Assembly: GCF_000011005.1 (NCBI RefSeq) | Contig: NC_013665.1 | Coordinates: 310,001-374,000 of the forward strand | Direction: 5' to 3' | Length of the DNA stretch: 64,000 nucleotides | Source of the DNA: Methanocella paludicola SANAE | GTDB taxonomy: Archaea; Halobacteriota; Methanocellia; Methanocellales; Methanocellaceae | In this document: piece after piece, positions 2,469 through 22,300 of the stretch | Position numbering within the stretch: position 1 is the stretch's first letter | How the letters are laid out: each line of letters starts with the position of its first letter | Notes under the pieces: generated by a model | Told to the model about the DNA's origin: nothing | Seen by the model: only the letters and a program-made list of their open reading frames with translations | The model's database searches: none | Position numbers and translations under genes: made by a program

Positions 2469-3818
2469 ATGACAAGAATATTGCCGGGAGTCGAAATTCA
2501 GGTAATCAAGGAGATCGTGCCCCAGCAGCTGAACCCTTCAGGCGTCGTGGCCCTCATAGGGACGACGGAGAAGGGCGAGGCGCTGGTGCCCACACCTGTG
2601 AGCAGCTACGCGGAGTTCGCGGACAAGTTCGGGTCGAGCGAGAGCTTCACCGTCACGAAGGACGCCAAGCAGGCCTTCCAGAACGGCGTGTTCCAGGTAG
2701 TCGTTGTGCCCATCAGCGGCCAGAACGGCACGAAGGGCACGCTCGTGTTGAAGGATAGAAAGGGGCGGGACACAGTGCTCCTGACCGCGAAGTCGTCGGG
2801 CGAGGAGGGCAACAAGATCATGGTGAAGGTCGAGGGCGACGCCGACTCGATACGGGTATCCGTGTCGGACGGGGCGAGCCTGGAGATCTACGAGGACGTG
2901 ACCATGAACTCGTCGAGCCAGAACTATCTCGTGGACATCATCAACCAGAGGTCCGCCATGGTAACGGCCGAGGACCAGCATTCGAGCGCCAAGTTCCCGC
3001 ACAACAACCCCGCGGCCGTCGAAGGCCAGCTTTCGGGCGGGGTCACGGGCGTCATTTCTAAGGCCGACTACGAGGCCGCCCTGGACAAGCTCGAGGGCGA
3101 GCCGGACGTGGACATCGTGGCCGCCTGCGAGGTCAGCGATCCGGAGATCCACGCGCTGATCGAGGCCCACTGCCTGAAGATGAGCATCGACGCCAAGAAC
3201 CGCATAGGCCTTGGCTCGGTCGCGAAGGGCGAGAGCATCAAGGACATCTGCAACCGCACGACGGTCATGGCGAGCGACAGGTTCGTCATCGTGGCGCCAT
3301 ACGGCTGCCTGGGAGCGGTGGCCGGCCTGATGAGCAGGCTGAACTATTACGAGTCGCCGACGTTCAAGCCGGTAAGCGGCCTGGCAAAGCTGGAGAAGAA
3401 GTACACGCCCTCGGAGCAGATGGAGATGCTCAAGGCGGGCGTGCTGCCCCTGGAAGCCCAGAAAGGCCGGGGCATCGTGGTCGTCAAGGGCATATCCACG
3501 AGCAAGGAGCAGATCAGCGTCACCCGCATCGCGGACCACGCGGTGAGGGGCGTAAAGAGCGTGTCCGACCTGTTCATCGGTACGCTCAACAGCCCGACGG
3601 GCAGGGCCGCGCTGAAGGGCAAGATCATCGAGTTCTTCATGAGGATGGAGTCCGAGGGCGCCATCGTCCCGAGTACGGACGGAAAGGAGCCGCCATTCCT
3701 GGTGGACGTCTACAGCTCCGAGCTGGACTTCGCCCAGGGCATCGTGCGCGTGAACATCGCGGTGAGGCCGGTCCGGGCGATGGACTATATCTACGCGACC
3801 ATCAAGGTCGAGGCGTGA
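2469..3818 (+). CDS. Contractile tail sheath protein
   Basis: 449 residues. The N-terminus (TRILPGVEIQVIKEI) and the early motif VVALIGTTEKG match the start of phage and contractile-injection-system sheath proteins. The C-terminal part has the usual sheath signature: a helix around FMRMESEGAIV, then a strand with FVDVYSSE-like sequence (FLVDVYSSELDFAQG) and IAVRPVRAMDYIYATI at the end. Length fits small myovirus or Mu-type sheaths. The sheath polymer surrounds the tube and contracts to drive it through a membrane. GAGGAAAGG just before the ATG supports this start. It is first in an operon of tail genes, 10 bases ahead of the tube gene. Confidence 0.9.
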   Translation: MTRILPGVEIQVIKEIVPQQLNPSGVVALIGTTEKGEALVPTPVSSYAEFADKFGSSESFTVTKDAKQAFQNGVFQVVVVPISGQNGTKGTLVLKDRKGRDTVLLTAKSSGEEGNKIMVKVEGDADSIRVSVSDGASLEIYEDVTMNSSSQNYLVDIINQRSAMVTAEDQHSSAKFPHNNPAAVEGQLSGGVTGVISKADYEAALDKLEGEPDVDIVAACEVSDPEIHALIEAHCLKMSIDAKNRIGLGSVAKGESIKDICNRTTVMASDRFVIVAPYGCLGAVAGLMSRLNYYESPTFKPVSGLAKLEKKYTPSEQMEMLKAGVLPLEAQKGRGIVVVKGISTSKEQISVTRIADHAVRGVKSVSDLFIGTLNSPTGRAALKGKIIEFFMRMESEGAIVPSTDGKEPPFLVDVYSSELDFAQGIVRVNIAVRPVRAMDYIYATIKVEA

Positions 3819-3828
3819 GGTGTTTTAA

Positions 3829-4242
3829 ATGGCTGTACAGTTATTTTCTGCACGGTGGAGCAACGTGACCATAACGCCGTCCATGGGCGGCAGCTCCGAG
3901 ACGGTGGGAGTCCAGTCGATCGAGTACTCCATAAACCTGAACAAGGAGGACCACTTTGAGGGCGGGAGCCACCTGAGGACCTACGTGTCCTACGGATACA
4001 AGCAGGTCAAGGGCAAGATCCAGGTCAAGTCCGTGAGCACGGTGCTCGACGCCCTGCTGGACAAGATGGAGGAGATGAACAACAGCTTCTCGCTGCACGT
4101 GGACCTCTCCAACGGCACGGACCACAAGGTCCTCGACTTCTTCGAGTGCTACCTCGAGAGCAAGGAGTTCGGGATCGACGTCAACGGCAACGGCATATCG
4201 ACGTACTCCTTCACCGCGAGGGACGTCAAGGAAGGCGCGTAG
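3829..4242 (+). CDS. Tail tube protein
   Basis: 137 residues. Size, beta-rich composition and its place directly after the sheath fit the inner tube protein of myovirus tails and injection systems (gp19/Hcp-like fold). The sequence includes a phrase typical of tube subunits, YSINLNKEDHFEGG, and ends in a strand-rich TYSFTARDVKEGA. Hexameric rings of this protein would stack to form the needle. The assignment rests on order and general features, since tube proteins share little sequence identity. No signal peptide or membrane segment. Confidence 0.75.
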   Translation: MAVQLFSARWSNVTITPSMGGSSETVGVQSIEYSINLNKEDHFEGGSHLRTYVSYGYKQVKGKIQVKSVSTVLDALLDKMEEMNNSFSLHVDLSNGTDHKVLDFFECYLESKEFGIDVNGNGISTYSFTARDVKEGA

Positions 4243-4259: not shown

Positions 4260-4616
4260 ATGAAAAAACTGACCAAGGAAGACATCCTGAAGGGCAAGGA
4301 TAAGCGCGAGACGTTCCGCGTCGACGCTTACGATTCCGACGTCGTCCTGCGGCCCCTGACCGACGGCGAGCTCAGCGAAGTGTTCGCCGTCATCGGCAAC
4401 GTCCCTCTCAAGAGCGACGGCACGCCGGACGGGGGCCAGGTCGACATCGTCAAGAACTTCAAAGCGCTGCGGCTTGTCACGTCCCTGGGCCTCGTCGAGC
4501 CGAAGCTCAGCGTGGACGAGGTCGGCGACATGAAGTTCGGCGTCCCGGAGCAGATCGGCACGCGCATCCTGGAGATCAGCGGCATATCCTCAGCTGTAAA
4601 AAAAGAGCTGAGATGA
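4260..4616 (+). CDS. Tail assembly chaperone, upstream (G-like) part
   Basis: 118 residues, mixed charged and helical, located between tube and tape measure where phages encode the tail assembly chaperones (lambda G/GT, XkdN-type). The last codons before the stop contain a run of seven A at 4598-4604, phased as A_AAA_AAA, a classical -1 slippery heptamer. The gene overlaps the next ORF by four bases (ATGA), and that ORF is in the -1 frame. A -1 slip would give a fusion of about 192 residues joined through K-R-A-E-M-K. Such chaperones coat the tape measure protein during assembly and are absent from the finished tail. Function inferred from position, size and frameshift architecture. Confidence 0.65.
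   Translation: MKKLTKEDILKGKDKRETFRVDAYDSDVVLRPLTDGELSEVFAVIGNVPLKSDGTPDGGQVDIVKNFKALRLVTSLGLVEPKLSVDEVGDMKFGVPEQIGTRILEISGISSAVKKELR
4598..4604 (+). promoter_or_regulatory. Candidate programmed -1 ribosomal frameshift site (A_AAA_AAA)
   Basis: Seven consecutive A fill the third base of one codon and the next two Lys codons of the upstream chaperone ORF. Slipping back one base enters the frame of the downstream ORF (reading R-A-E-M-K-R-F) ten bases before the zero-frame TGA at 4614. A small hairpin (about 4629-4643, five pairs with a G-U) lies further downstream than classical stimulators. The position within a tail chaperone gene pair is the expected one. Confidence 0.6.
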
Positions 4617-4837
4617 AGAGGTTCGTCAGGTCCCCCGAGGGCCAGGAGCTCGCCATGCTGTGCCTGGATTTCGGGTACAAGCTGGCCGACAGGCCCGGGG
4701 ACCTCACCCGCCCTCAGATCAACTTTCTTGCCCTGGCGCTCTCGGACCGGCTGGAGAGGATAAACCTCGCCAGGTCCGACCGGCCGGGAGTGAATAAGAT
4801 TGTCTTCGTGGACGATGACGAGGATGAAGAGGAATAA
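4613..4837 (+). CDS. Tail assembly chaperone, downstream (T-like) part
   Basis: 74 residues as an independent ORF from ATG 4613, or the C-terminal part of a frameshift product with the preceding ORF. It starts KRFVRSPEGQELAMLCLDFG, is helical in the middle, and ends with a strongly acidic tail (VDDDEDEEE). In long-tailed phages this part of the GT fusion contacts the tail tube protein while the G part contacts the tape measure. The ATGA overlap also allows translation by termination and re-initiation, so both a free and a fused form are possible. Confidence 0.6.
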   Translation: MKRFVRSPEGQELAMLCLDFGYKLADRPGDLTRPQINFLALALSDRLERINLARSDRPGVNKIVFVDDDEDEEE

Positions 4838-4911
4838 GGGGGAGGCTGCTTACGACAGCGATCAATGACCTGGTCGCGGCTGCGGCAGGCATCAGGGTAC
4901 CTATTGGTATT

Positions 4912-7083
4912 TTGTATGAGAGCCTTCCTCCTGCGGCCGCCCGGATCGGCTCCGTTTCTACGATAGGCTTAGAGCGGATGGCCGGCCCCGATAGCCCGGC
5001 TGAGCAGCCGCTGCCTGCCAATATTATTTTACTTATCGAAGAGCTTCGCCGCTCTGTTATAGAGCTTAACGCGAGGGCCGCCAGCGTCCCCGAGATCCAC
5101 AAGTACTATTTGCCTCCGGCCGCCCCGGCCCTGGCCGTGCCCGCGCCAGTGCAGGCGCCTGCCGTGGAGCCCGTGACGGTTTACGTTCGCGAGCAGGCCG
5201 ACCAGGCAGATAAAAATCAGGAGCCCGTTGAACTTTCAAGGATCGTCCCTGCAAAGCCTGCGCAGGCAGTTGATAACGACATCATCCGGTCAAACGTTGT
5301 CCTGGGAAGACTCAGGGAGGACTATGCGGGGCTTACTTATGACCTGGCAGAGGTAGAGCGCCTGATAAAGGAGGCTATGCGCTCGTCGGCCGCCGATATC
5401 CCGGCCATGGTGAGCGCTAAGGCAACCCCGATAATGCCCTCGCAGCAGGCGGGGGGAGAATACGTCGAGCGCCCCGCCCCTGAAGTCATCGTAAGGGAAA
5501 AAACGTCTATAGTGAAAGAGGTAGTCACGAAGGAGGGCGCCCGGGAAAGCAAGGCTGGTCTGGACGATGCTAAAGTGTCTAAGCCGGCGGTGCTTGCCAC
5601 GGCCCTGGCCCAGGGCATAAGTCTACCTGGCGTGATCCGGAAGTCGACCGTAGATATGATGATAATGCAGGCGGCGCTCGCCCCGGAGCCTGCCCGGTAT
5701 CTGGCAGTCCCCGTCGTGCCTGAAAGCCGAAGCGCCATCGCGCGGGACGCTGTGCCGGATATGGTATCCTCTAAGATCCCGGCCCCAGAAGCGCCGGTCG
5801 TGCAGGCCCTGGGCATCGCCCGGGCCTTCAACGCCCTTATAGGCTCATATCTCTCTTTCCGCGGCACGCCGGCCCGGCGAGGGGACATAAAAGACGGCGT
5901 AACGCAGCTTTTACTATCACTTCCGGAGCAGAAGGCCGTCGAAGGGCCAGCTTCGGGCCTGTTCGACGCCATGGCCGCGCTCCAGGCGGCCGGGCCGAAG
6001 GCGGCCGGGATGCTTCAGCCGGTCGAGATAGCGGCAAGAGCGCCAGCGACTGCGGCGGCGCCGTTAACTCAGGATAATGAGCCGATGCGTTCTACCGTCC
6101 TTGGCGACCTCGGCGAGATGCATAACACTATGGTGGCCCTGCAGGACGCGGTCGGCAGCCTTCGAAGGGCGAGCCCGCCGGTCGCTGAAGTTCCCGAAGC
6201 TGCCGAGATCCCTGCGGCCGAATGGCCCGAATACGAAGGCGAATTATCGGTCATTCGGGCCTCAATAGCCAGGCTCCAGGCGGCCATGGACTACCTCAGT
6301 GTCAATGTTCCTACGCTTGCGGACCTCGTCGTGATCCAGAGATCTGTCGTGGACATTCCACAAGTTGCGGCGCCGCAGGCAGCAGCGCCGGTGGCCGTTA
6401 CTATCGAAGGAGTACCGCCGAAGGCCGCCGCGCCCGTAAGCCTCCCGGACCTGTCCTGGGTGACCCGGGAGTTCTGGCAGATGCAGGGCATGATCGCCCG
6501 GCTCCAGGTGCCCATGTACGCGGAGGGCGGGCTGGTAGAGGAGCCTACCCTGGCGTTCGTCGGAGAGTCCGAGCCCGAGTGGATCGTGCCCATGAGCGCC
6601 TGGGACGCGTCCCAGTCGAAGCTGAACGATTTCTACCACATGCTCTGGTCGCAGATCCAGGACCTGGGCACCTCGATGCAGGATACCGTGGACGGCGTGA
6701 ACGAGGCACTCGAGGGCATAACGCCTGGCGGCGAGGGAAAACCCGAGGACACCGACTTAAGACAGCAGCTACAGGATACGATGAAGGAGCTGGTGGATAG
6801 GTACCTGGGCATGATCGGTCTCAGCGTGGACACTTTGAAGGACGCCGAGAAGACCGCCGGGATGGGGCTGGTCCTGGGAACGGCTACCGTCGCGTTACCT
6901 TATGCGAAAAAGGTCATGGTGGGAGACGATGAGGAGGATAAGGAAGAATCCTCCGGCGGCGGAAAGGAAGACGATAAAGAAGAGGACGATGAGGAAGACT
7001 TCTGGGAGATGATCGACGGCCTGGACGAGGCGGCGTCGATCAGCGATAAGCGTGACGGGAAGTTCGACCCGGATGAAAAATAA
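4912..7083 (+). CDS. Tail tape measure protein
   Basis: 723 residues from a TTG at 4912, Ala/Pro-rich with long helical stretches. Two segments beginning near residues 125 and 395 look like repeats (IRSNVVLGRLRED and MRSTVLGDLGEMHN). Near residues 538-565 is a tape-measure signature, YAEGGLVEEPTLAFVGE followed by WIVPMS. The last 80 residues hold a hydrophobic helix (about 660-675) and a very acidic tail. The tape measure sets tail length; at 0.15 nm per residue it would span about 110 nm. The start is uncertain. The frame is open back to 4828 without ATG, GTG or TTG, the extension looks coding (LLTTAINDLVAAAAGI), and a GGGGGAGG lies at 4838-4845, so a CTG or other rare start near 4846-4852 is possible. 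Confidence 0.78.
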   Translation: MYESLPPAAARIGSVSTIGLERMAGPDSPAEQPLPANIILLIEELRRSVIELNARAASVPEIHKYYLPPAAPALAVPAPVQAPAVEPVTVYVREQADQADKNQEPVELSRIVPAKPAQAVDNDIIRSNVVLGRLREDYAGLTYDLAEVERLIKEAMRSSAADIPAMVSAKATPIMPSQQAGGEYVERPAPEVIVREKTSIVKEVVTKEGARESKAGLDDAKVSKPAVLATALAQGISLPGVIRKSTVDMMIMQAALAPEPARYLAVPVVPESRSAIARDAVPDMVSSKIPAPEAPVVQALGIARAFNALIGSYLSFRGTPARRGDIKDGVTQLLLSLPEQKAVEGPASGLFDAMAALQAAGPKAAGMLQPVEIAARAPATAAAPLTQDNEPMRSTVLGDLGEMHNTMVALQDAVGSLRRASPPVAEVPEAAEIPAAEWPEYEGELSVIRASIARLQAAMDYLSVNVPTLADLVVIQRSVVDIPQVAAPQAAAPVAVTIEGVPPKAAAPVSLPDLSWVTREFWQMQGMIARLQVPMYAEGGLVEEPTLAFVGESEPEWIVPMSAWDASQSKLNDFYHMLWSQIQDLGTSMQDTVDGVNEALEGITPGGEGKPEDTDLRQQLQDTMKELVDRYLGMIGLSVDTLKDAEKTAGMGLVLGTATVALPYAKKVMVGDDEEDKEESSGGGKEDDKEEDDEEDFWEMIDGLDEAASISDKRDGKFDPDEK

Positions 7084-7089
7084 GCGGGC

Positions 7090-8280
7090 GTGGTAAGGAT
7101 GGACGTAGAGATAAGTGAGACTAAGACGGCGGGAAAAAAGCTCGTGCTTACATCTTCAGGCCTTGGGCTATACGTAAAGAGCCTGCTCGGCGTCGGCGCG
7201 TACTATAGCGTGAACAACGTGACGATCTCCGAGAGCAGGAACTTCGTCGAGCACACCATGCCCGGCAGGAAGGGCAGCGTGTTCCAGGACATGGGACGCC
7301 CTGCGATCAAGGTCACCATCGAGGGTAACATCGCCGAGGACGGCATCTACTATGGCCTGTCGGGCAAAGGTAAAAACACGATCATGCTGGAGGAGCTGCA
7401 CAAGCTCTGCGACGCGGGCAATCCGGTAGACTTCCTGTGCGATATGCCCGCGCTGTTCGGGGTTTCCCGCGTCATCATCCAGGAGCTCGAGGCCACCGAG
7501 GTAAAGGGAAGAAAACACAATTACAATTATAAGCTTACGCTGAAGGAGTGGAGCGAGCCTGCCATGGGCTCGGACGCTCTCCGGAACAAGTACGTGGAGA
7601 GCATGAAGAAGGACGCCAAGATACAGCTACTGAAAAAGGGCGTCGTCGCCGGCGCCGCGGCCGGTGTCGTCGTGACCTATATGGCCGTCACGACCGTAAA
7701 AACGAATAGGCTCGTTATTAAGCTCGATATCGATAAGCGCGTGGTCACGGCCGAGGAGGCCGTGGATATCAAGGCATCGGTAAACGACTCTAAGGGCGAC
7801 CCCGTCGCCGACGCGGACGTTACGATCAAGCAGGATACCAAGGAACTGTTCTCGGGGAAGACCAATGCGGAAGGCATTGTTTCCGCCACGTTCCAGAGCC
7901 CCGATGCCGGCAATTATACGGTCACCGCGACAGCCGTGAAAAGCGACTATGGAGATGGCGAGGCTAGCGCTACCGTCACCGTGGATACCAGGATAAAGGC
8001 CAGGCTTTCGACCGATAAGGCCACGATCAAGACCACGGGTAAGGCTAACATCAAAGTGACCGCGGCGGACTGTAACGGCAAGGCCATCGAGGGCGCGACC
8101 ATCGAACTGGCATGCACGGGCGCCACGCTCGAGCCGGCCAGCGGCAGCGCGGACTCGCAGGGAGCCTTCACGGCCAGCTTCAGCTCCACGACCGCCGGGA
8201 GCTACGAGGTCAAGGCCACAGTGAAGAAGTCGCCGTACGCCGATGGTAACGCGAACGTCACGATCAAGGTGATCACATAA
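7090..8280 (+). CDS. Baseplate protein with membrane segment and two Ig-like domains
   Basis: 396 residues (GTG 7090; ATG 7099 is an alternative). The first 160 residues resemble the N-terminal domain of Mu gpN-type baseplate/DNA-circularisation proteins, with the motif HTMPGRKGSVFQDMG followed by KVTIEGNI. Usual relatives continue with LysM or other hub parts. Here, a Lys-rich stretch leads into a hydrophobic segment at about 184-203 (GVVAGAAAGVVVTYMAVTTV), then two Big_1-like Ig domains (about 208-300 and 302-396) of the type seen in the surface proteins nearby. By the positive-inside rule the baseplate domain would be cytoplasmic and the Ig domains outside. The hydrophobic segment is Ala/Gly-rich and could instead be a buried helix. 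Confidence 0.7.
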   Translation: MVRMDVEISETKTAGKKLVLTSSGLGLYVKSLLGVGAYYSVNNVTISESRNFVEHTMPGRKGSVFQDMGRPAIKVTIEGNIAEDGIYYGLSGKGKNTIMLEELHKLCDAGNPVDFLCDMPALFGVSRVIIQELEATEVKGRKHNYNYKLTLKEWSEPAMGSDALRNKYVESMKKDAKIQLLKKGVVAGAAAGVVVTYMAVTTVKTNRLVIKLDIDKRVVTAEEAVDIKASVNDSKGDPVADADVTIKQDTKELFSGKTNAEGIVSATFQSPDAGNYTVTATAVKSDYGDGEASATVTVDTRIKARLSTDKATIKTTGKANIKVTAADCNGKAIEGATIELACTGATLEPASGSADSQGAFTASFSSTTAGSYEVKATVKKSPYADGNANVTIKVIT

Positions 8281-8324
8281 GGGGAGAATGGGATATGGAC
8301 AGGGCCGGGAGGAAGTGATATCGT

Positions 8325-9557
8325 TTGCCGCCATCTGCTAAACTGCTGCCAAAAATGCCGCTACCTAAAAAACCACTACCTGCAATACCAAAAATTAAAA
8401 AGCCGTTACCTAAGATACCGTTATCGAGCCGTTACCGGCCGATCTATAAGGTAACGATCAAGACGCCCCAGGGAAAGCAGTACGAATATAACTCGTGGTA
8501 TTACAAGGACCCTACGGGCATTAAAACGAAGCAGAACAATAAGCTGGCCATCTATATCGATCGCGACCTGGAGAAGAAGCTGGACGTATGCCTGATGAAC
8601 ATCTCCCTCCGGAGCGGGGACCTGATCGACACTGCCAAGAGCCCGAAGTTCGGCGACATCCGGATCGGCTCCGTGATCAAGGTATACCTTGGCTACGCGA
8701 ACGTGAACGAAGAAAACCCGAGCCTCAAGGAAAGCGATATTGCGTTCGCCGGCATCATCGACGAGATCTCCCACAGCTTCAAGAAGATCTCGATCACCGC
8801 GTTCAGCATGGCCTACAAGATCATCTTTAAAAAGGCGGACCCGAAGAAGTTCGAAGGGGACGACTGGAAAAAAAATGAAAAATCCTCAAAGGACATCATC
8901 ACGACCCTGCTGGAAAAGAAGCTGGACGTCGATAAGATCGACGAAGGCCTGAAGTTCACGGCCTATACGCCTAGCGATGAACAGTCGATCTACGATAATA
9001 TCAAGACGCTGGCTGACTGTAACGGGTTCCTCTTCTATATCTCGAAGGATGGCAAGGCCCGGATCCACGAAAAGAGCTCCCGGGCCCATTCGTTCAAATA
9101 TGGCGAGGACATCCTGGAGAACAGCATCACCATGTCCAAGCCCGCTTACGATAAGGTCGAGGTCAAATTCACCTATAAAAAGGACGGCAAAGATACTAGC
9201 GTCCTCTCATCTAAGCCGATCGCCGGCAGCACCCTGGCAAAGGATAAAAAAGAGGAAACGAAAAATATCGACTTCGGCCTGGCCGATGACGTGAATACGG
9301 CAAAAAAGATCGCGGAGAACATCCTCCGCGGGATCTACGTGATCGAGACGGGCGAGGTGAAGGTCATCGGGAATACCGGCGTGGACCTGGGCGATGAGCT
9401 GACGATCTCCTTCGACAGTTCGGCCCCGGGCGCGAAAGAGCTCGATTACATGAAGCGCGACAAGGTGGTCATAACCAGGGTCACCCACAAGTACGGGAAA
9501 AAATCGGGCTTTACCACGACGATCGGATGGAAGAAGTTCGAAAAGAAGAAGCCATGA
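8325..9557 (+). CDS. Tail hub protein, gpD/late-control (gp27-like) family
   Basis: 410 residues from a TTG. The region from about residue 40 onward fits the gpD/gp27 hub fold that caps the tube and holds the spike: beta-rich N-part with GIIDEISHSF, a central stretch on multi-step lookup of coordinates (SIYDNIKTLADCNGFLFYI), and a C-part ending TRVTHKYGKKSGFTTTI. The first 35 residues are unusual: a Pro/Lys-rich run with repeated PLPKK/PLPKI units, probably disordered. The spike gene follows directly. In phage Mu and P2 these proteins form a trimer at the baseplate centre. Confidence 0.78.
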   Translation: MPPSAKLLPKMPLPKKPLPAIPKIKKPLPKIPLSSRYRPIYKVTIKTPQGKQYEYNSWYYKDPTGIKTKQNNKLAIYIDRDLEKKLDVCLMNISLRSGDLIDTAKSPKFGDIRIGSVIKVYLGYANVNEENPSLKESDIAFAGIIDEISHSFKKISITAFSMAYKIIFKKADPKKFEGDDWKKNEKSSKDIITTLLEKKLDVDKIDEGLKFTAYTPSDEQSIYDNIKTLADCNGFLFYISKDGKARIHEKSSRAHSFKYGEDILENSITMSKPAYDKVEVKFTYKKDGKDTSVLSSKPIAGSTLAKDKKEETKNIDFGLADDVNTAKKIAENILRGIYVIETGEVKVIGNTGVDLGDELTISFDSSAPGAKELDYMKRDKVVITRVTHKYGKKSGFTTTIGWKKFEKKKP

Positions 9558-9590
9558 CGACGGCAGGACAGGGGAATAGAGGGTAGAAAT

Positions 9591-10451
9591 ATGGTAACAA
9601 TGCCAAGATACTTCATCGATATAGGCCAGGTCACGAAGGTAATGCCACATAAGAGTAACAATGACGGCGCCAATTACCACTGCGATATCATGCTCAGGGA
9701 TAGCGGCAACAGCCTGACCAACGTGCCGGTGGCCTCGACGCGCATGGGTTTCGCATGCATTCCTGAAGTCGATGACCATGTGCTTGTGGGGTTCATCCGG
9801 GGCAACCTATACATGCCGGTCATCCTGGGCACCCTGTACAACGACCAGGCCAAGCCCCCGCTGTATCTCGAAGGCGAGGCCGTCTATGTCTGTCCCGAAT
9901 ATAAGCAGAAACAATCGAGCGATCCAAAGCCGGAGGAGCTTAAGCGCATATACATGGAGTTGCCGAAGCATAAAATGAAGCTCATCGTCCGGGAAGAGGA
10001 CGTGCACTATGAGCTTCTGAAATACAAGTTCGACCTCAAGAAGGAAGAAGGCATAAAGCTGGAGGTCAACGAAAAGACGAGCCTGGCCATCAGCAAGGAC
10101 GGCGACATCACGATCACCGCAAAGGATACTAAAATATCGATCAACAAGGAGGGCGAGATCGCCATCGACTCGAAGCAGAAGGTGGGCATCAAGACCACGG
10201 CGGAGGTCAGCCTGGAGTCGAGCGGCGGCGACATGAAGCTCACCGCGAACAACATCACCCTCAAGGGCAACCAGTCCGTCAGCATCGAAGGCACGCAGGC
10301 GGTCGAGATCAAGGGCACGAACGCCAAGATGGAAGCCAAAGCACAGCTCGATATCAAGGGAGCGATGGCCAAGGTGGAAGCGACCGGCATGATGGATGTC
10401 AAGGCCTCCGGTGTCATGAACATCAAGGGTTCTATCGTGAACATCAACTAG
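9591..10451 (+). CDS. Baseplate spike protein (gpV/VgrG-type OB fold plus beta-helix)
   Basis: 286 residues. The first 90 residues form a gp5/VgrG OB-fold-like domain, ending GTLYNDQAKPP, the hallmark of the spike base (compare GxLYN). From about 150 to the end are short repeats alternating I/V-x-I/A with Gly, Thr and Lys (DGDITITAKDTKISINKEG and so on), typical of the triple-stranded beta-helix needle. The spike sits at the tip of the tube and pierces the target envelope. The hub gene is upstream and the PAAR tip downstream, the expected order. An alternative Met start lies at 9600. Confidence 0.85.
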   Translation: MVTMPRYFIDIGQVTKVMPHKSNNDGANYHCDIMLRDSGNSLTNVPVASTRMGFACIPEVDDHVLVGFIRGNLYMPVILGTLYNDQAKPPLYLEGEAVYVCPEYKQKQSSDPKPEELKRIYMELPKHKMKLIVREEDVHYELLKYKFDLKKEEGIKLEVNEKTSLAISKDGDITITAKDTKISINKEGEIAIDSKQKVGIKTTAEVSLESSGGDMKLTANNITLKGNQSVSIEGTQAVEIKGTNAKMEAKAQLDIKGAMAKVEATGMMDVKASGVMNIKGSIVNIN

Positions 10452-10459
10452 GTGAGAGC

Positions 10460-10855
10460 ATGGGCATGCCAGCAGCAAAGATGGGAGACAAAGTGATGGC
10501 CGTGGATACGCATATATTCCTGATCCCTGCGCCACCGGGGCCTCCGGTACCGACGCCCCTGCCGAGCCCGTTCAACGGCACGATCACAGGTAATTGCAGC
10601 ACGAACGTGATAATAGAAAAGAAGCCGGCCGCAACGGTGGGCTCGACGGCGATGAACATGCCGCCCCACATGCCCCAGGGAGGGCCGTTCCAGGTGCCTC
10701 CCACGAACCAGGGACAGATCATCATGGGCAGCCCGACCGTCATGATCAACGGCAAGCCGGCGGCCCGTAACGGGGATACGGCCCTGACATGTAACGATCC
10801 GGCGCCGCTCCCGATCGGCAAGATAATCGCAGTGGGTACAGTAATGATAGGTTAG
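10460..10855 (+). CDS. PAAR-domain spike tip protein
   Basis: 131 residues, rich in Pro, Gly and Asn. It contains PAAKMGDKVMAVD near the N-terminus and VMINGKPAARNGD near the C-terminus, the two PAAR-type motifs that wrap the metal-bound cone sharpening the spike. A Pro-rich stretch separates them, together with H and C residues available for metal binding (His in the first part, Cys in LTCND). No toxin domain is fused. It lies 8 bases after the spike gene. Confidence 0.85.
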   Translation: MGMPAAKMGDKVMAVDTHIFLIPAPPGPPVPTPLPSPFNGTITGNCSTNVIIEKKPAATVGSTAMNMPPHMPQGGPFQVPPTNQGQIIMGSPTVMINGKPAARNGDTALTCNDPAPLPIGKIIAVGTVMIG

Positions 10856-10866
10856 CGGGGTAAAAA

Positions 10867-11304
10867 ATGCCAGATAGCATATATGGAAGCGATATAAAGC
10901 TGAGGATGGGCCAGTATGCCGGATTCTACGGCATCGGCGCGGACCTCTACGTCAACCGCAGGGGCGACGTGGACATCGTGTCCGGAAGGGAGAACCTGGG
11001 CCAGGCGATCATACACCGCCTGTTGACCAGGCAGGGAGAGCTCGAGGAGCTGGGCTACCCGGAGTACGGCTCGAACCTGCACGAGCTGATCGGCAGCCCT
11101 AACAACCTGAAGACGTGGAACCTTGTGAAGCTCTACGTGAACCAGTGCCTCTCCCAGGAGGTCCGGGTCGAGAAGGTCGAGAGCATTGATGTCATGCCCC
11201 ATGGCAGCGACCCTCATGCCGTCGTCGTCGAGGTCGCCATCGTGCCCATCGGAAGCGAAACCCCGCTCGGCATCTCGTTCCCTTATAATCTGGAGGTGGA
11301 ATAG
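10867..11304 (+). CDS. Baseplate wedge protein, gp25/gpW-like
   Basis: 145 residues. The central part, with the phrases ENLGQAIIHRLLTRQGEL and YPEYGSNLHELIG, is the gp25-like signature found in myovirus baseplates, type VI secretion (TssE) and injection systems. It starts sheath polymerisation from the baseplate. Its last base overlaps the GTG start of the baseplate J gene (TAGTG), so translation is likely coupled. Confidence 0.87.
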   Translation: MPDSIYGSDIKLRMGQYAGFYGIGADLYVNRRGDVDIVSGRENLGQAIIHRLLTRQGELEELGYPEYGSNLHELIGSPNNLKTWNLVKLYVNQCLSQEVRVEKVESIDVMPHGSDPHAVVVEVAIVPIGSETPLGISFPYNLEVE

Positions 11305-12842
11305 TGTCATACGTGCCTAAGGCATACAGGGATATTGCGGACGCGATACTATCGCAGATCGCCAGCGGCGTCGTGGAGCAAAAGTTCACGTACCTGCCTG
11401 ACGGGGGAGTATACACCCTGTCATATCCGGAAGAGAAAACGGTGGTCAAGGTCGAGGGCAGCCTGAACGGGTACCCCCACGTGTTCACGAAGGACGTGGA
11501 CTATTTAGTGAGCGACCACACGCTGAAATGGCTCCAGGGCTCAAAGCCCGACGGCAACACCCCGTTCACGGTTTATCACCTGGCCGGGACACCGGTGGAC
11601 ATCACCGACGTCAACCCGGGCAGCGTCGTCCGGACCATCATCGAGTCGATCGCCGTCGAGATGGGCTTCCTGTACACCCAGATGGAAGCGGTCTACGAGT
11701 CGAGCTTCATCGATACCGCCACGGAACAGGCCCTCGACCTTGTCGTCGCCATGCTGGGCGTCACCAGGAAGCCGGCCGAGCATGCCACCGGGGACGTCAC
11801 CTTCGGGAGGAGCGGCGAGCCCAAGCTGCTGAGCGTCCCGAACGAGGCCATCGTATTCGACGGCAAGGATGCCCACGCGCTCAAGAACGGCATGGTCAAG
11901 AGCGTTAAGTCCATCGAAGGCCAGGCTAATGGCACGGCGGTCCAGTTCGCCGAGGGCACGGACTTCAGGCTTGAGAGCGACCGGATCGTCTGGCTTCAGC
12001 CGGGTAAGCGTCCGGATAAAAGCTCGGTCTTTTACGTCAACTACAGCTATTACGAGAAGATCATCATACCAAAGGATAGCGAAGTATCCACCTACTCCAG
12101 GAACTCCGAGAACATACGGAGCTTTAAGACCATCCGCGAGGCCCTGCTGACGAAGAACTCGGCCGGCAAGTGGGAGATCATCGTGCCGGTCGTGGCGACG
12201 GTGCCGGGCAGGGCGGGGAACGTCTTTTCCGGAAGCATCAGCATGATGCCCACGGCCATACCCGGGGTCGACTACGTGGTCAACAAGAGCGACATCATGG
12301 GAGGCGCCGAGGTCGAGGGCGACGAGGAGCTGAGGGACAGGGCAAAGCGGGCCATGGAGCGGGCTGGCAAGGCGACCACGCGGGCGCTCCAGCTTGCCGT
12401 CCAGGCCGTCGAGGGCGTCACGGGCGAAGTCGTGGTGATCGACCAGCCCGACGGCGTGCCGGGCATCATCCAGGTCATCGCCACGGGTGGAGACCGGGAG
12501 GAGATCGAGAACGCCATCGAGGAGACCCGCTCGGCCGGGATACGCGTCGAGCTCAAGCGGCCCGTTTCCGTGCCGCTCGACGTCCGGCTCATGGTATACA
12601 CGGCGGCAGGGGCCGAGATCGAGGCGGTCAGGCAGGGTGTCGACCAGGCCGTGCGTAAGTACTTCGCGTCCCTGGAGATCGGCGACGACGTCATTATAAG
12701 CCGCATCATCGAAGCGGCTGTGAGCGTTAGCGGAGTAAAGGACGTGCGCGAAGTGACGATCAACGATAAGGCGGAGAATGTCCGCATCAAGAGGGATGAG
12801 AAGGGCGACTGCAGGCTGCTGGAGCTCTTCATGGAGGCATGA
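11304..12842 (+). CDS. Baseplate J-like wedge protein
   Basis: 512 residues. The middle and C-terminal parts match Baseplate_J/gp47 proteins: a strand-rich region with VPVVATVPGRAGNVFSG and SGSISMMPTAIPGVDYVVN, then GGAEVEGDEELRDRAKRAM and the gp6-like C-terminal domain with EGVTGEVVVIDQPDGVPG. It forms the outer wedge of the baseplate ring. The N-terminal 200 residues include an extra beta-rich segment. A GGAGGTGGA precedes the GTG start, which overlaps the gp25 stop by one base; the following gene overlaps its stop. Confidence 0.87.
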   Translation: MSYVPKAYRDIADAILSQIASGVVEQKFTYLPDGGVYTLSYPEEKTVVKVEGSLNGYPHVFTKDVDYLVSDHTLKWLQGSKPDGNTPFTVYHLAGTPVDITDVNPGSVVRTIIESIAVEMGFLYTQMEAVYESSFIDTATEQALDLVVAMLGVTRKPAEHATGDVTFGRSGEPKLLSVPNEAIVFDGKDAHALKNGMVKSVKSIEGQANGTAVQFAEGTDFRLESDRIVWLQPGKRPDKSSVFYVNYSYYEKIIIPKDSEVSTYSRNSENIRSFKTIREALLTKNSAGKWEIIVPVVATVPGRAGNVFSGSISMMPTAIPGVDYVVNKSDIMGGAEVEGDEELRDRAKRAMERAGKATTRALQLAVQAVEGVTGEVVVIDQPDGVPGIIQVIATGGDREEIENAIEETRSAGIRVELKRPVSVPLDVRLMVYTAAGAEIEAVRQGVDQAVRKYFASLEIGDDVIISRIIEAAVSVSGVKDVREVTINDKAENVRIKRDEKGDCRLLELFMEA

Positions 12843-13750
12843 TGTCAAGGGCTGACGATATCGCCGACAGGCTGCCCCACTTTTACATGACGTGGAACGC
12901 GGACTCGGCGGTCACTACGCTCATCCGGTCCGTGGCAAACGTCCTGGACTACACTCAGTCGGACCTCATCGAGATCCTGCGGTCCCACTGGGTGGACACT
13001 GCCCGGGGCAATGACCTGGACCGGCTGGGCCTGATGCTCAGCACGCAGCGCAAGGTCGGCGAAGCGGACCAGGAGTACAGGGGCCGCCTGAAGACCGCCA
13101 TCATAGGGTACAGTGGCGGGGGCACGCTGAACTCCATCCGTATCATGATAAGGATCGCGCTGGGCCTGCCGGAGGACTATCCCATCGATATCGTCGAGAA
13201 CCCGAAGGAGAACATGAAAAAGTCCTGGACCGTCCCCGCGAACGGGGAATGGGCCGTGGACCCGGTCAGCATCTCCTCGTCGCAGCCCCGGATAACGCTC
13301 GCCGTGGAGACGCCGGACGTGGAGATCAACAATCCCACGATCACGAACATCGACACGGGGCAGTCCGTCACCTTTAACGGCAGGATGGCCCGGGGCGACG
13401 TGTTAAACCTTTATGCGGGGCGGGCGATACTCAACGGGGCGGACAGAACGGCCTCGCTCTCATCGACAACGCCGCTGACGCTGCCCAGGGGTAAGACCCG
13501 GTGGAAGTACACGGAGGCGGTGGGGTCCAACCTGGGGGTCTTTGACCGGGCGCAGTTCGACAAGTCCGTGTTCGCCGTGGAGATCGCGACGAAAGTGACC
13601 TTCGAGTGGTCTGCATACCTGCCCGCCACGTTCGAGGTCCGGATACCGTCGGCCTCGCTCGAGAGGGTCGGCGCCAGGCCGGAATACGTACAGGGCCTGC
13701 TAGACTCGCTGAAGGCCAGCGGAGTAAAGGGCACGGTGAAGGTGGTATGA
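12839..13750 (+). CDS. Baseplate-associated tail protein I-like
   Basis: 303 residues. The N-terminal 110 residues (ADDIADRLPHFYMTW, then DLIEILRSHWVDTARGNDLDRLG, then a GGGTLNSIR loop) resemble gpI/DUF2313-type proteins, which follow baseplate J in Mu, P2 and many tail clusters. From about residue 125 on, the protein is beta-rich, with a repeated strand pattern that might present a fibre. GGAGG lies just before two adjacent Met codons; the second (12842) has better spacing. It overlaps the end of baseplate J, indicating coupling. Confidence 0.7.
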   Translation: MMSRADDIADRLPHFYMTWNADSAVTTLIRSVANVLDYTQSDLIEILRSHWVDTARGNDLDRLGLMLSTQRKVGEADQEYRGRLKTAIIGYSGGGTLNSIRIMIRIALGLPEDYPIDIVENPKENMKKSWTVPANGEWAVDPVSISSSQPRITLAVETPDVEINNPTITNIDTGQSVTFNGRMARGDVLNLYAGRAILNGADRTASLSSTTPLTLPRGKTRWKYTEAVGSNLGVFDRAQFDKSVFAVEIATKVTFEWSAYLPATFEVRIPSASLERVGARPEYVQGLLDSLKASGVKGTVKVV

Positions 13751-15428: not shown

Positions 15429-18400
15429 TCAGTTCATCGACGCAGTAGCCTTCTTATCATCCGCTGAAACCGCAGGCGCACCGCACGACGGGCATACGGG
15501 CAGGCTGCCCGGTATGGGCTGGCCACAGTTTGCACAAAGCTGACGGGACATGCTCCGGAACTCCACGCGGCCGGTACCCTTTAGCGTGCCCATGGTCGCG
15601 GTCACCATCGCGATGCCTCCTTCTTTATTGGAGACGATCGTGGCGTTCGCCGAGTTAGCCCTCGCGGGCATGTTGACTATCGAGCCGACGATGTCGCCGA
15701 GGGTCGTGTTAAGCTCGATCACTTTGTCGGACAGGGGCACGACATAGTTGCCCTTCGAGTTCCGTATGCGGACGTTGACGCTGGCGGACGACTTGCTGTC
15801 GGCGATGATCATGCCCGGGGTGATGGTTACGGCCAGAGAGCCTCCCTCGAGCTTGAACTCGACGGGCACGGACGCATTGGCCTTATCGCCTATCTTAGCC
15901 TTTATGGTGACGGGGCCGAACTCCTTGGAGGACGTCAGGACCGCGTCGGCGAAGTTCCTGCCTGAGGGTATGGTGACGCTCTCGATCCGGCCGGCAGTGG
16001 ACTCGAGCTCGACGTACGTGTCGCTCCGCGCCTTCTTCGGCCGGCCGAAGCCGTTAAAGACCTCGATACGCACGGGCAGCCTGGACATGCCGTCCGCGGG
16101 GATGGCGCCCACCTTCGGGACGACCCTGAGGTCGTATTCCCTCCATTTCTCTATCAAGGTCACCAGGATGATGAGCACGATGGCGATGATGATGACCGCA
16201 ATGATGAAGTAGATCAGGATCTGCATGTCGAACATGCCCTGTTTTACCTTGATGAAGGTGCTGTAGCTCGCCTGGCCTATCCCCTCGGAATAGGCGGTGA
16301 CTCCAAGCGTATATGTGCCCTCGGAGCCCGCTGTGTACTGGGCGACGAACTTGCCGTCGCTGTCGGTAACGCCGGACTCTGGGGTGATAGTGCCGCCCGT
16401 TGCCACGAGGCTGACCTGCGCGTTGCTCACTGGCATGACGCCGTCCGTGACCGTCACCGTGACCTCGGCCTTCGAGTTGGGGCTGACCGACTTGGGATCG
16501 ACGCTCATGGCGGCGTACAGGTGCCTCTCATCGGCGCCCACGACCTGTACCGCGTAGCTCACCCTGGACGCCGGGTGACCGCTAGCCGTTGCCGTCACGG
16601 TAAGTATGTACGAGCCAGGGTCTCCCGAGTGGAACATGGCGAACATGTTGCCGTCGCTGTCGGTCGTGCCCGAGGACGGGGTTACAGAGCCGCTCGTGGT
16701 CTCGATCTTTATCGAGGCCCCCGGCACGGGGATGCCGCCATCCATGACGCTGACGGTGACCTCTGCCTCCGAGCCGATGACCACGGGCTGCTGCTTGACC
16801 ATGGCGTTCACGGTAAGCGCCCCGGGTATGGCGTTGACTACGCTGGCGGCCAGCATCGCGGTGCCCGGGTCATATCCCGTGGCCGTGGCCGTGATTGTCA
16901 GCGAGTGCTGGCCTGGGTTGTCCGACTTGAACGTGGCGTAGCAGACGCCGTTGCCGTCCGTCGTCGAGTTGAGCATGATGATCTGGCCGCCGGTGCGGTC
17001 GATGCTCACTTTTGCGCCGCTGACCGGCCGGGTCCCGTCCGTCACGGTGATGGTGATCTTGCCTTCGTATCCGGCGACGATCTGCTCGGTGTCGAGGTTC
17101 GCGTTGACGTATAACTGTTCCACGTCGGGCGCCGGGGTAGGTGTCGGCGTGGGCTCGGGCGTCGGCGTTGGGGTGGGGGTCAGGCCATGGATGGACAGCG
17201 TATAGGTCTGTGGATTACCCGGAACTGCATCGTCCGATACCTTTTGAAGGCCGAAGACGACCGACTTTTCGCCCTGTGCCGAAGAGTTGACCAGCACGGT
17301 TATCTTCTGGAATCTTTCTTTGACCGCGAAGTGGACCGTGTATGGAAGGCCGGCCGTCGTGGAGTAGTCATCGGGCGAGGCCGCGCTGCCGCTGGCCCGG
17401 TAGAAAATAATGCTGGACTCCCGGTCGTATGCCGACCTCTCTATTATTATCTCGCATAAGCCACCGCTATTGGCGTCAAAGCCCGACTCGGTGAAATAGA
17501 CGTCATAGGGTTCAGGCACGCGCTCCGATAGGTCTATGACCTCCACTTCCACGTGGTCTAAGGAACCGATCGAGACGTTATCCTGCGGCTGGAGCCGGAA
17601 GTATGCGTACTGGGCATCGTGCGTCCTGTTATCCTCGATCACGCTGATGTTGACTGTCTTGCCGGTCTCGTTCGGGGCGAACGTTATAATACATTTTGAC
17701 GTGCTGTCCAGCGCCGGGTCAGCCTGGAACCTTGAGACGTACATGTTCCTGCTCAGCGTATTATCATACTGGAATACGACCCTGCTCTCGACGTTCTTCG
17801 CGCCCGACCGGGTCAGATAAAGGCTGACGGTGTTCCCTTCATTGACGCTGGCGATGCCGGCCGTGAAACTGACCACGGGGTAAGGGGTCGTATCGGAAAC
17901 GGCCAGGGCGTTCATCGAATTGCCGATGGTGGCATTAACGGGGTTTGTGAGCGTGAAGTCCAGGCGATAATCATTGCCGCAGATGACATCGTCACGGGTC
18001 GTGACCGTGATGTTGGCCGTCTTTTGCCCTGGCTGGAACAGGACCATGTTCGTCGGCGATACCGAGAAGTTATCCCTGCTGTGGCCTTCGACCGTATAGC
18101 TGAACTCCACGCTGCTCCTGATGTTCGTGGCGCCGGTCCTGCACAGGGTTATATCGATAGCGTTCCCCTCGTCGACGGCCTCGCCCGACAGCACGAACTC
18201 GATCTCCGGCAGCGCCGTCCTATCGTTGATCGTCAGATCATTCGAGCCCTTCGTTCCGATCAGCGCCTTGCCGCCGTTCACGGCCTCGAGGGTAAATTTT
18301 ATCACCCGCGTATCATCGTAGGCAAGGTTGGAGTCCGCGTTTATGGTAATGGTCTTCTCTTTCTCGCCCTTCTGGAAGGTTATCTGGTAATTATTATTGT

Positions 18401-19370
18401 TAAGCTGGGTGGCGTTGTTACCGGTGACCGCGTAGTAGCCGGTCCCCGGAAGGATGTCCATGCTGAGCTCGACCTTGCTGGCGGTGTTCGATATGTCGCC
18501 TTCCCGGGTGACCGTGAGGTTGACGCTGCCGCCCTCGTCGACGCTCTCGCTCGTCTCCTTGAACTCGACGACAGGCGTCGAGCCGCTGCTGGTCACCGTC
18601 AGGTTATTCTTGACCGTATTCACAAGCCTGCAGCCGACAGGGTTCGAAAGCTGAAGGGTGACATTATAATCGTTTTCGAAATAGCCGTCAACAGAAGTAC
18701 TGACAGTGATATACTTGACTGTCTCGCCTGCCGCGAAGTTGACTGTCTGCGGCTGCGGGGAAACGGTAAAAGTGCCGCCCCTGGTGGCGTTGCTCATGCA
18801 CGTGTAATCGACGCTGCTCGGCATGTATGTGGCCCCGGACCGGACGACGGCGACGTTGATCGAGCTTCCCTCGTTGACGCTCTCCTGCACGGCCTGGAAC
18901 TGGGTCGTAGGGAGCTTATCGATGTGGAGCGTGTTCCGGTCGGGCCATCCCGGATATGTATATAAAGCACCAGATACTTCCAGTGTGAATTCCTGAGACA
19001 CATCATTAGCGATCGAATTGCTCGCGTGGAACACGACCGGGATCTCATGCCAGTACGTATAAACGGGCGTAAAGACGTACGTCGCGCTTCCGTCGGAATT
19101 GAACGGCACGCCGTTCAACGTCGCCGTATAATTAGTGCCGTAGGTCGCGTTACCTCCAGTGGCCCTCATCTTAATGGTCACCGGCAAACCTCCGATTATC
19201 CAGGCGTCGGGGTTATCATAAATGATAGTGAGCCCGACGGTGCTGCCTTCGCCCACGCTCTCGGAGGTCTGGTTAAAATAGACTAGCGCTGAACCGCTGG
19301 CCTCCGCGGAGATGAGCGCTGGCAGCAGAGCGAGCGCCAGGACGAATAACGCCAGCCTGATCTGGCGCAT
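15429..19370 (-). CDS. Giant surface protein: six Calx-beta and three Ig-like domains, TM, zinc ribbon
   Basis: 1313 residues from ATG 19370, the signal-peptide start (MRQIRLALFVLALALLPAL). Longer readings add 36 charged residues of shadow sequence. Order: six Calx-beta-type repeats (about 25-700, each with ESVxEGxxVxL), a Thr/Pro linker (about 727-748), three Big_1-like Ig domains (about 750-1040), TM (about 1047-1070), two PADGMS/ADSKSS Ig-like units, and one CxxC...CxxC zinc ribbon near 1270-1295. The start overlaps the upstream gene's stop (TGATG), so the two are co-translated. Calx-beta repeats usually bind calcium. The C-terminal module is shared with the genes at 669 and 19370-22561. 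Role unknown; adhesion is plausible. Confidence 0.8.
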   Translation of the reverse strand: MRQIRLALFVLALALLPALISAEASGSALVYFNQTSESVGEGSTVGLTIIYDNPDAWIIGGLPVTIKMRATGGNATYGTNYTATLNGVPFNSDGSATYVFTPVYTYWHEIPVVFHASNSIANDVSQEFTLEVSGALYTYPGWPDRNTLHIDKLPTTQFQAVQESVNEGSSINVAVVRSGATYMPSSVDYTCMSNATRGGTFTVSPQPQTVNFAAGETVKYITVSTSVDGYFENDYNVTLQLSNPVGCRLVNTVKNNLTVTSSGSTPVVEFKETSESVDEGGSVNLTVTREGDISNTASKVELSMDILPGTGYYAVTGNNATQLNNNNYQITFQKGEKEKTITINADSNLAYDDTRVIKFTLEAVNGGKALIGTKGSNDLTINDRTALPEIEFVLSGEAVDEGNAIDITLCRTGATNIRSSVEFSYTVEGHSRDNFSVSPTNMVLFQPGQKTANITVTTRDDVICGNDYRLDFTLTNPVNATIGNSMNALAVSDTTPYPVVSFTAGIASVNEGNTVSLYLTRSGAKNVESRVVFQYDNTLSRNMYVSRFQADPALDSTSKCIITFAPNETGKTVNISVIEDNRTHDAQYAYFRLQPQDNVSIGSLDHVEVEVIDLSERVPEPYDVYFTESGFDANSGGLCEIIIERSAYDRESSIIFYRASGSAASPDDYSTTAGLPYTVHFAVKERFQKITVLVNSSAQGEKSVVFGLQKVSDDAVPGNPQTYTLSIHGLTPTPTPTPEPTPTPTPAPDVEQLYVNANLDTEQIVAGYEGKITITVTDGTRPVSGAKVSIDRTGGQIIMLNSTTDGNGVCYATFKSDNPGQHSLTITATATGYDPGTAMLAASVVNAIPGALTVNAMVKQQPVVIGSEAEVTVSVMDGGIPVPGASIKIETTSGSVTPSSGTTDSDGNMFAMFHSGDPGSYILTVTATASGHPASRVSYAVQVVGADERHLYAAMSVDPKSVSPNSKAEVTVTVTDGVMPVSNAQVSLVATGGTITPESGVTDSDGKFVAQYTAGSEGTYTLGVTAYSEGIGQASYSTFIKVKQGMFDMQILIYFIIAVIIIAIVLIILVTLIEKWREYDLRVVPKVGAIPADGMSRLPVRIEVFNGFGRPKKARSDTYVELESTAGRIESVTIPSGRNFADAVLTSSKEFGPVTIKAKIGDKANASVPVEFKLEGGSLAVTITPGMIIADSKSSASVNVRIRNSKGNYVVPLSDKVIELNTTLGDIVGSIVNMPARANSANATIVSNKEGGIAMVTATMGTLKGTGRVEFRSMSRQLCANCGQPIPGSLPVCPSCGAPAVSADDKKATASMN

Positions 19371-22300
19371 CAATTGAGCCCTCCGACGGGCGGCACTTTT
19401 ACGCGGACGTTCTGCATGGCCCCGCACTTGTGGCAGAACTGGGCCTGCTCGGGAATGACGGTACCGCAGGTCATGCACTGCTTGGTGTCCACGCCGGACG
19501 GCGGGTTCTTGCCGCAGGCCGGGCAGGACTGGGCGTCGAGGGTCATCGGGGAGCCGCAGTTCATGCAGAACCGCTTGGGCAGGCCTCGGAACTCGATCTT
19601 GGCCTCTCCCCTGAGGTTGCCCATGGACGCGGTCACGACCGATATGCCTGTCATGTCGCCCGAAAAGATGGTGGCGTTCGCAGACTGGTCGCCTGCGGGC
19701 ATGTAGACGGAGCTCACGGCGTCACCCAGCGATGTGTTGAACTCGATTACCGTGTCCTCAAGAGGCTTCACGTAGTTGCCCTTTCCGTCCTTCACTTTGA
19801 CCGTGATGGAGGCGGAAGACTTCCCGTCCGCCGGTATCGAGTCCGGGGCCACCGTAACTTCGAGGGAGCCGTTATCTACTACGTATAGGACTTCTGCCGA
19901 TGCTACATCCCGGGCTGACTTCGCGGTGATCGTGACCGTGCCGAACTCTTTGGAGGCGGTTAGGTCAGTGTCGATGTAGTCCCTCCTTGACGGCAGCGTG
20001 ACGCTCTTGATGGTGCCCGAGGTCGCCTCGAGCTCCACTTCCACGTCGCTGCGCATCCTGCTCGGCATGCCGAACCCGTTCACGTACTGCACCCTGACGG
20101 GCACCTTCGTGACGCCGTCCGCCGGTATCCTCGTCTTCTTCGGCACGATGCTGAGCGACTTCCGCAGCCACTTCCGCAGGAACCACACGATGGCGATGAT
20201 AAGGATCGCCAGTATTACGATGATCAAGGCGATCCAGAACACGAAATCGCTAAGCACGAGGCTCTCGGTCGCGTCGACCATGGCGTTGGAGCTCGCCTGC
20301 TCGAACCCGGTGGCCGTGGCCACGACCGCGATGGTGTAGGTGCCGGCGTCGTCCGGTATGAACTTCGCGTTGTACTTGCCGTCCGAGTCTGTCTTGCCGT
20401 ATGCGGGCACGATGCTGCCCCCGGTGCACGTGACGTTGATGCGCGCGTCGCTCAGCGGCTTTACGCCGTCCGTGACCGAAATGGCGACCGTAGCCCCCTC
20501 GTTCACGTCGACGGGCTTCGGGTCGATGGTCATATTAATGTAAAGCTTCTTCGGCGCGGCGCTCGCGGCCTCGATCGCCGTGCTGCTCGTCGCCCTCTCG
20601 TAGCCCGTGGCGTTCACGCTGGCCGTCAAAAAGCCGAAGCCCGGGCTGCCGGGCTTGAACTTCGCCAGGAACTTGCCGTCGGACGTCGTCAGTCCGGAAA
20701 GGGGCGTGACCGCGCCGAACGTGCTCGTCAGGTCCACCCGCGCGCCGTTGACGGGCTGCGTGCCGTTCATGACGGTGACGGTGATGACCGACTCGTTGCC
20801 GATGACGACCGGCTGGGGCGATACCGTTACGTTCATGGTCAGCACGTTCACGGCTGCCGGGGCCACGGTTATTATCGTGTTGGCCGTCGCGGTCCCGTAG
20901 TCTGACTTGTTGGCCGTGACGGTGAGCACGAACGAGCCCGAGGCGTTTGACGTGAACTTCGCATAGCATGTGCCGTCCGAGGCCGTCGTGGGTAACAGCC
21001 TTGTGACCTTGCCGCCCGTGCTGATGAAGCTGACCGTGGCATCGCTTACCGGGGCGCCATTATCCGTGACCTTGACCGCGATGGACGCCTCGGAGCCCGA
21101 GGTCAGCTCTTTAGGCTCGGCGGTTACATTAAGGGACAGCATTTTTGCGCCGGCCGGATTGACCACGATCACGGCGCTCGAGGACTGGTCCAGGTACCCT
21201 GACGTGTTCGCGCTTATCGTCAGGTCGAACCTGCCGGAGGACGACGACGTGAAGTTCGTCAGGAAGACGCCGTCCGAAGTGGTGGTGCCGCTGGAGCTCC
21301 TTACTGTCCCGCCGGTGCTTATGACGCGTACGAAAGAGTTCTTCAGGGGCGTGGTGCCGTTCATCACCGTGACCTTTACCTGCGCATCGGAGCCAGCTAT
21401 GATCGGGTTAGGGTCCACGGTCACGTTCACCGTCGTCACGGGAAGCGGCGTGGGCGACGGCGATGGCACAGGCACGGGCACGTCGACGGTCTGCACCACG
21501 ATGCCGGAGGGCATGCTCCCCACCTTGATCCTGCCTATCTCTACCTGCCTCGACAGGTCTACGACCGATATGGAGCTATCCGAGTCGCACACATATAGCG
21601 TATTGTTATCGAAAGCCATTTCTTTGGGGCCATAGCTGACGGGTATCGTGACGCTTATGCGGGACAGCGTCGCGTCTGCGATAGCGATAGAATTGGGAGC
21701 GCATGAAAGGTACACGCCGGTGCTCGTGTTGTCCGGCAGGAGCCGATTCACCTCGCCGGCGACGCCGCTGGTGGATATCGTGTGGCCGGTGACATATATT
21801 ATTCCCGACCCCGCCAGGCCTATGAGCAGGTCGGTGTTGAACATCGAAACGTTATTCTTATGGGCCACGTACACGAACTGGCCGTTGGCAGAGAAGGCGA
21901 CGTCTGTCGTGTTGAATACCTCATAATCGCCGCCTCCGTTGTGATGGAATATATTCACTGACCCGATCTCGCTGTACGTGTTGAGGTTATAGATGACCAG
22001 CTCGTTATCGTAATAATGCGTTATGAACAGGTACGGGGTGCCGCCGAAATATGTTACCGCGATCGCGCGGACGCCGCCGCTGCCCTGGTTATATTTCTCC
22101 GATTCGATGGTTTTGCTCACCAGCCCCGTGTTCATGTTGATGACGAAGATGACACAGTCGTCGGGGTTACCGGTAAGATTGGCGGCCACGTAGGCGTAGT
22201 TCCTCTGCGGATCCGCAACGATCCTGAAAGGATGATAATCCGGGATAGTTTCCTCAAGGTCGATCGTTCTTACCACGGTGCCGCCGGCGAGATCTACCAC

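Follow-up and report, generated by a model that had tools for sequence, protein, structure and literature searches.

A contractile tail cluster on a methanogen chromosome

The genes studied here lie on the chromosome of the methanogen Methanocella paludicola SANAE, inside a window (the whole 64-kb stretch of DNA that was analysed) corresponding to positions 310001-374000 of a single-contig genome of 2,957,635 bases that is 99.99% complete (NC_013665.1). A cluster of contractile tail genes spans positions 2469 to about 13,750 of the window and includes sheath, tube, spike, PAAR, gp25-like and baseplate J genes (Table 1). Two short overlapping ORFs, TAC1 and TAC2, are placed after the tube gene and before a tape-measure-like ORF, and the order sheath-tube-TAC1-TAC2 is the same in all five clusters compared. 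The baseplate gene order is also kept in four of those five, the contig of the remaining one (G186) stopping at the hub gene.

Table 1. Features of the tail cluster and of the TAC1-TAC2 junction, in window coordinates
Feature	Position	Strand	Evidence or remark
Tail sheath	2469..3818	+	phrog_279, 1.8e-48; PF04984, 2.4e-22
Tail tube	3829..4242	+	Assigned by position; weak family match
TAC1 (ORF1, putative G-like tail assembly chaperone), 118 aa, zero frame	4260..4616	+	phrog_344 in 5/5 homologues scanned
Perfect 7-bp inverted repeat CTCAGCT/AGCTGAG, A7 inside its 10-nt loop	4589..4612	+	This species only; noticed post hoc
Predicted A7 slip site, exactly seven A, in phase A_AAA_AAA for a tandem -1 slip	4598..4604	+
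TAC2 (ORF2, T-like), frame that a -1 slip would join, 77 aa post-slip	4604..4837	+
Overlap ATGA, containing the ORF1 stop and a possible ORF2 start, the first ATG beyond the run	4613..4616	+	ATG not kept in relatives
Tape-measure-like ORF	4852..7083	+	phrog_167, E 0.05, weak; place and size fit
Baseplate/hub genes: hub with Ig repeats, hub D-like, spike V, PAAR-like, gp25-like, baseplate J, tail I-like	7090..13750	+

Neither capsid nor portal nor terminase was recognised among the ORF sequences, flanks of roughly 12 kb on the upstream and 8 kb on the downstream side included. The upstream flank of about 12 kb carries ORFs resembling chromosomal housekeeping genes, and downstream come Ig-rich proteins of surface type, followed at a greater distance by A-type ATPase genes. 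Judged by its genes, the cluster is a predicted contractile tail-like particle (a phage-like protein translocation structure) that is headless and not a prophage. An AAA+ ATPase and tail cap genes, which are traits of extracellular contractile injection systems, were not recognised by eye among the cluster ORFs. Archaeal phage-like translocation clusters have been described for ANME and their relatives (PMC9012536), and a literature search combining Methanocella with tail sheath found no paper. Compared with GenBank phages, the sheath sequence gave distant matches only and the ORF1 sequence gave none.

All five ORF1s scanned match phrog_344, a PHROG tail-chaperone family, weakly (best E 1.3e-4), and nothing rose above the cut-off when ORF1 was compared with Pfam. 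The putative identification of ORF1 as a tail assembly chaperone draws on this weak family match (E about 1e-4) together with gene position, in agreement with the identity first proposed for it. A search for phrog_344 across 392 genomes says nothing, because it gave no match anywhere, controls included. The predicted structure of ORF1 was too poor to use (mean pLDDT 43.7), and that of ORF2 is a modest helical model (mean pLDDT 71.9). Two weak ORF1 matches, L015 and L016, turned out to be unrelated proteins.

Several features of the neighbouring genes may be recorded here. Very long Ig-rich surface-type ORFs adjoin the tail cluster on the minus strand (about 15429-22500), and a zinc-ribbon Ig-like membrane protein (669-2159) adjoins the sheath. 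In G001 and G003, two of the related genomes, the homologues of this membrane protein lie at the opposite end of the tail cluster and on the opposite strand. The hub protein at 7090-8280 has Big_1 Ig repeats at its C-terminus, and homologues elsewhere match only about residues 34-158. In the tape-measure-like ORF (region 4838-4914) no canonical start in frame occurs before TTG 4912; the ACG at 4852-4854 aligns with the ATG start of the G003 and G002 homologues, is preceded by the strong Shine-Dalgarno-like GGGGGAGG and could possibly be the start codon.

The TAC1-TAC2 junction and its conservation

ORF1 ends in the codons TCC TCA GCT GTA AAA AAA GAG CTG AGA TGA. In the -1 frame ORF2 runs uninterrupted across the adenines, continues after them as AGA GCT GAG ATG AAG AGG TTC onward and stops at TAA 4835-4837, so that the predicted fusion comprises 115 + 77 = 192 residues, with VKK followed directly by RAEMKRF at the junction. 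The original prediction had described, from an archaeal host, an in-phase slippery heptamer, a four-base overlap, a product of about 192 residues and a gene position matching the logic of lambda G/GT, and all of these agree with what we find, the ORF layout and the product length exactly.

Runs of this length are not rare by themselves, since the 64-kb window holds eight distinct A/T runs of at least seven. Protein and profile searches provided 15 homologous loci, making a set of 16 with the window: three from other Methanocellales, three from one further order (G186, G451 and G471, of which the first two are near-identical and count as one), four from a further class (G572, G621, G628 and G644) and five from IMG/VR contigs. 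Each of the four Methanocellales genomes searched carries the family, as do genomes of other groups in the same phylum. An adenine run is found at the junction in 16 of 16 loci: A7 in the window, which is the shortest, A8 in one locus, A9 in nine, A10 in four and A11 in one, although a draft assembly may miscount an individual run by one adenine (the agreement of G001 and G002 is independent). At none of these loci does ORF2 share the frame of ORF1, an outcome with a probability of (2/3)^16, about 0.0015, if frame were random and both near-identical loci are counted. The comparison of homologues that had been suggested as a check showed neither a lost run nor a locus with both ORFs in one frame, and because the run is conserved the junction is beyond chance, though A7 alone is not rare.

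Runs of at least nine are scarce in two of the related genomes: G001 (3.18 Mb) has five distinct A/T runs of this kind and G002 has ten, one of them in each case being this junction. In seven relatives the upstream stop that closes ORF2 is a TAA that takes in the run's first two adenines; six of those seven have their ORF1 stop 3-13 nt past the run, so that the run is practically the sole place where the frames could be joined. The TAC2 protein is conserved from the codons directly following the run.

Homopolymers are error-prone, and the interrupted frame could in principle reflect a sequencing error or a decayed gene. We regard this as extremely improbable given that both frames are conserved as protein in 16 loci from independent assemblies and that the window genome is a single, nearly complete contig. 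Phase variation, in which the run in the DNA itself would mutate by replication slippage and switch the fusion on (A8 here) or off, would fit the variation in run length across species (A7-A11); with none of the 16 loci in the fused state, and A7 being short for a contingency locus, this too is very hard to credit.

TAC2 could instead be made as a separate protein without any recoding, through stop-restart at the ATGA overlap. The window itself offers the four-base overlap and an ATG belonging to ORF2, and an ATG lies at +8 past the run in the window genome (G000), G001, G002, IMGVR 9034 and V31593, and at +5 in V2053. However, the 15 nt past the run contain neither ATG nor GTG nor TTG in ten of the 16 loci (G003, G186, G451, G471, G572, G621, G628, G644, V45996a and V45996b), and the codon aligned with the window ATG is in those ten ATA, CTG, ATC, TTA or CTA, coding for a hydrophobic residue of the fused protein. 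Later possible starts of ORF2 in the ten lie inside or past the conserved FVxSPEG segment; G572 has an ATG just upstream of the run and a TTG at +27. Because so many loci have no start codon near the run, separate initiation is not the shared mechanism. It would also leave the A-run without explanation, and even for the window we consider it improbable.

Elements that might assist a slip were sought around the junction. The inverted repeat flanking the run is part of a predicted 115-nt fold with a z of -1.76, which is not significant, and the RNA folds predicted for the window have z values of -1.2 to -1.8. No convincing conserved stimulatory RNA structure was found at the junction among the relatives, and no Shine-Dalgarno-like stimulator is evident there. 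A pattern search identified tRNA-Lys(UUU) in all four Methanocellales genomes; tRNA-Lys(CUU) was confirmed in none of the four, the pattern used being narrow.

Shift direction and mechanism

ORF2 lies in the -1 frame in 13 of the 16 loci, the window included; the remaining three (G001, G002 and G572) have it in the +1/-2 frame. Two of these three belong to one genus and G572 to another class, a second switch of direction thus depending on G572 alone. On a tree of the fused proteins the direction label needs three changes (the bootstrap range is also three), but support is weak for several branches, and those with strong support require only one change by themselves. The zero frame of G001 and G002 reads ATA or GTA AAA AAA AAG and contains a classical A_AAA_AAG; a single -1 slip in these two loci or in G572 meets a stop within a few codons. 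The fusion at the three loci would be reached either by a ribosomal +1 or -2 slip, or by an RNA-polymerase slip whose sign is free. Because relatives switch direction, one conserved -1 ribosomal mechanism is disfavoured.

Taken together, the layout and conservation of the junction make it very likely that a G/GT-like TAC1-TAC2 fusion is made by recoding. Most translation would end at TGA 4614-4616 and yield TAC1, and a minority would slip on the A-run into the overlapping frame to give the 192-residue TAC1-TAC2. By analogy with lambda gpG and gpGT, the two products could help the tube to assemble on the tape measure of the contractile tail-like particle. At the window the likeliest step would be a ribosomal -1 slip with tRNA-Lys on A_AAA_AAA, which we consider probable. 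The ribosome is favoured there because A7 is shorter than the runs on which transcriptional slippage occurs in bacteria (PMC1088944, PMC5009743), where nine is the threshold in many species (PMC1088944). The programmed -1 frameshift of the original prediction thus fits the window A7 best, but does not extend to a general mechanism for the family, given the +1/-2 frame at three loci and the runs of A9-A11 at 14 of 16.

Those same observations bring in programmed transcriptional slippage, in which the archaeal RNA polymerase would add or drop an adenine and, at the window, an mRNA with A8 would encode the fusion. Runs of nine to eleven are longer than a -1 heptamer requires, the +1/-2 loci come from two distant groups, and a single mechanism would cover both directions, including at the A_AAA_AAG of G001 and G002 where the -1 slip leads so soon to a stop. 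For the relatives with A9-A11, slippage by the polymerase would be the more economical explanation, since it adds or drops A and tolerates a change of direction. The window, however, with A7, falls short of a run of about nine or more, a length found in 14 of the 15 relatives, and the papers searched described no programmed slippage by an archaeal RNA polymerase, although an empty search does not prove that it is absent. For the window itself we therefore hold this explanation to be rather unlikely, and prefer the ribosomal -1 slip.

Both readings could apply within one family. It is conceivable, and we suggest it tentatively, that most of the fusion comes from programmed slips of the archaeal RNA polymerase on A9-A11, the direction being free to flip, and that M. 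paludicola, with its A7, drifted toward or switched to the ribosomal -1 shift, so that two mechanisms would serve one gene pair. More broadly, the switch of direction hints that slippage by RNA polymerase, and not ribosomal slippage alone, may be used in archaea.

Known recoding systems and more distant relatives

The tail-chaperone frameshift is conserved in dsDNA phages (Xu, Hendrix and Duda 2004, as cited in PMC5009743). Lambda gpG/gpGT shares with the present locus two overlapping ORFs between the tube and tape measure genes, a slip site close to where the first ORF ends and a short and a fused product, which are predicted here. Unlike the lambda and dsDNA phage cases, the genes described here belong to a headless contractile tail cluster on an archaeal chromosome, the homopolymer reaches A11, and direction varies among relatives.

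That programmed -1 frameshifting is poorly documented in archaea, as had been noted, is a fair statement, but tail-chaperone frameshifts have already been predicted for haloarchaeal tailed viruses, -1 in HVTV-1, HCTV-1, HCTV-2 and HCTV-5 and +1 in HSTV-2, according to two reviews (PMC5009743, PMC8211752). The resemblance lies in a predicted frameshift in archaeal tail chaperone genes, and the HCTV-2 site is A_AAA_AAC. In contrast, the viral sites are heptamers, with no long A-runs reported in these reviews, and the cluster here is chromosomal and belongs to a methanogen. Recoding of tail chaperones in haloarchaeal viruses is thus already known; what is new is a chromosomal methanogen family, a homopolymer slip site with long A-runs and a switch of direction.

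The closest parallels to the long runs are bacterial. Thermus thermophilus dnaX slips on a run of nine A (PMC5009743), and tssM1 of the Citrobacter rodentium T6SS carries A11 and both of its products are required (PMC4256274). As in the present family, a run of 9-11 A sets a short against a long product, and tssM1 is likewise part of a contractile machine. Unlike the window, with its A7 known from sequence alone, both bacterial cases have been shown experimentally. The -2 frameshift of phage Mu, as cited in PMC5009743, arrives in the +1 frame by slipping back two nucleotides, a route that G001, G002 and G572 could also take.

Archaeal recoding rests on few cases, and this family supplies chromosomal natural variants of one slip site (A7, A8, A9, A10 and A11; -1 and +1/-2). 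A comparison of these variants would tell ribosomal slippage apart from slippage by RNA polymerase in archaea and would show how the direction of recoding changes while the product stays.

Other signals occur in more distant relatives. Three loci in two archaeal genomes make up a second archaeal group of tail chaperones, in which T_TTT_TTC is conserved and ORF2 lies in the -1 frame, at offsets from the match start of 422 (L041), 452 (L044) and 452 (L042). Four IMG/VR contigs (L054, L055, L057 and L058) lack an A-run and have AAA or ACA then TCC TTT C, their ORF2 lying in the +1 frame; they may share a candidate conserved +1 site. Both alternative signals sit at the homologous place, just upstream of an FxxSxEG-like motif of ORF2, and the wider family is predicted to keep the product, with signal and direction varying.
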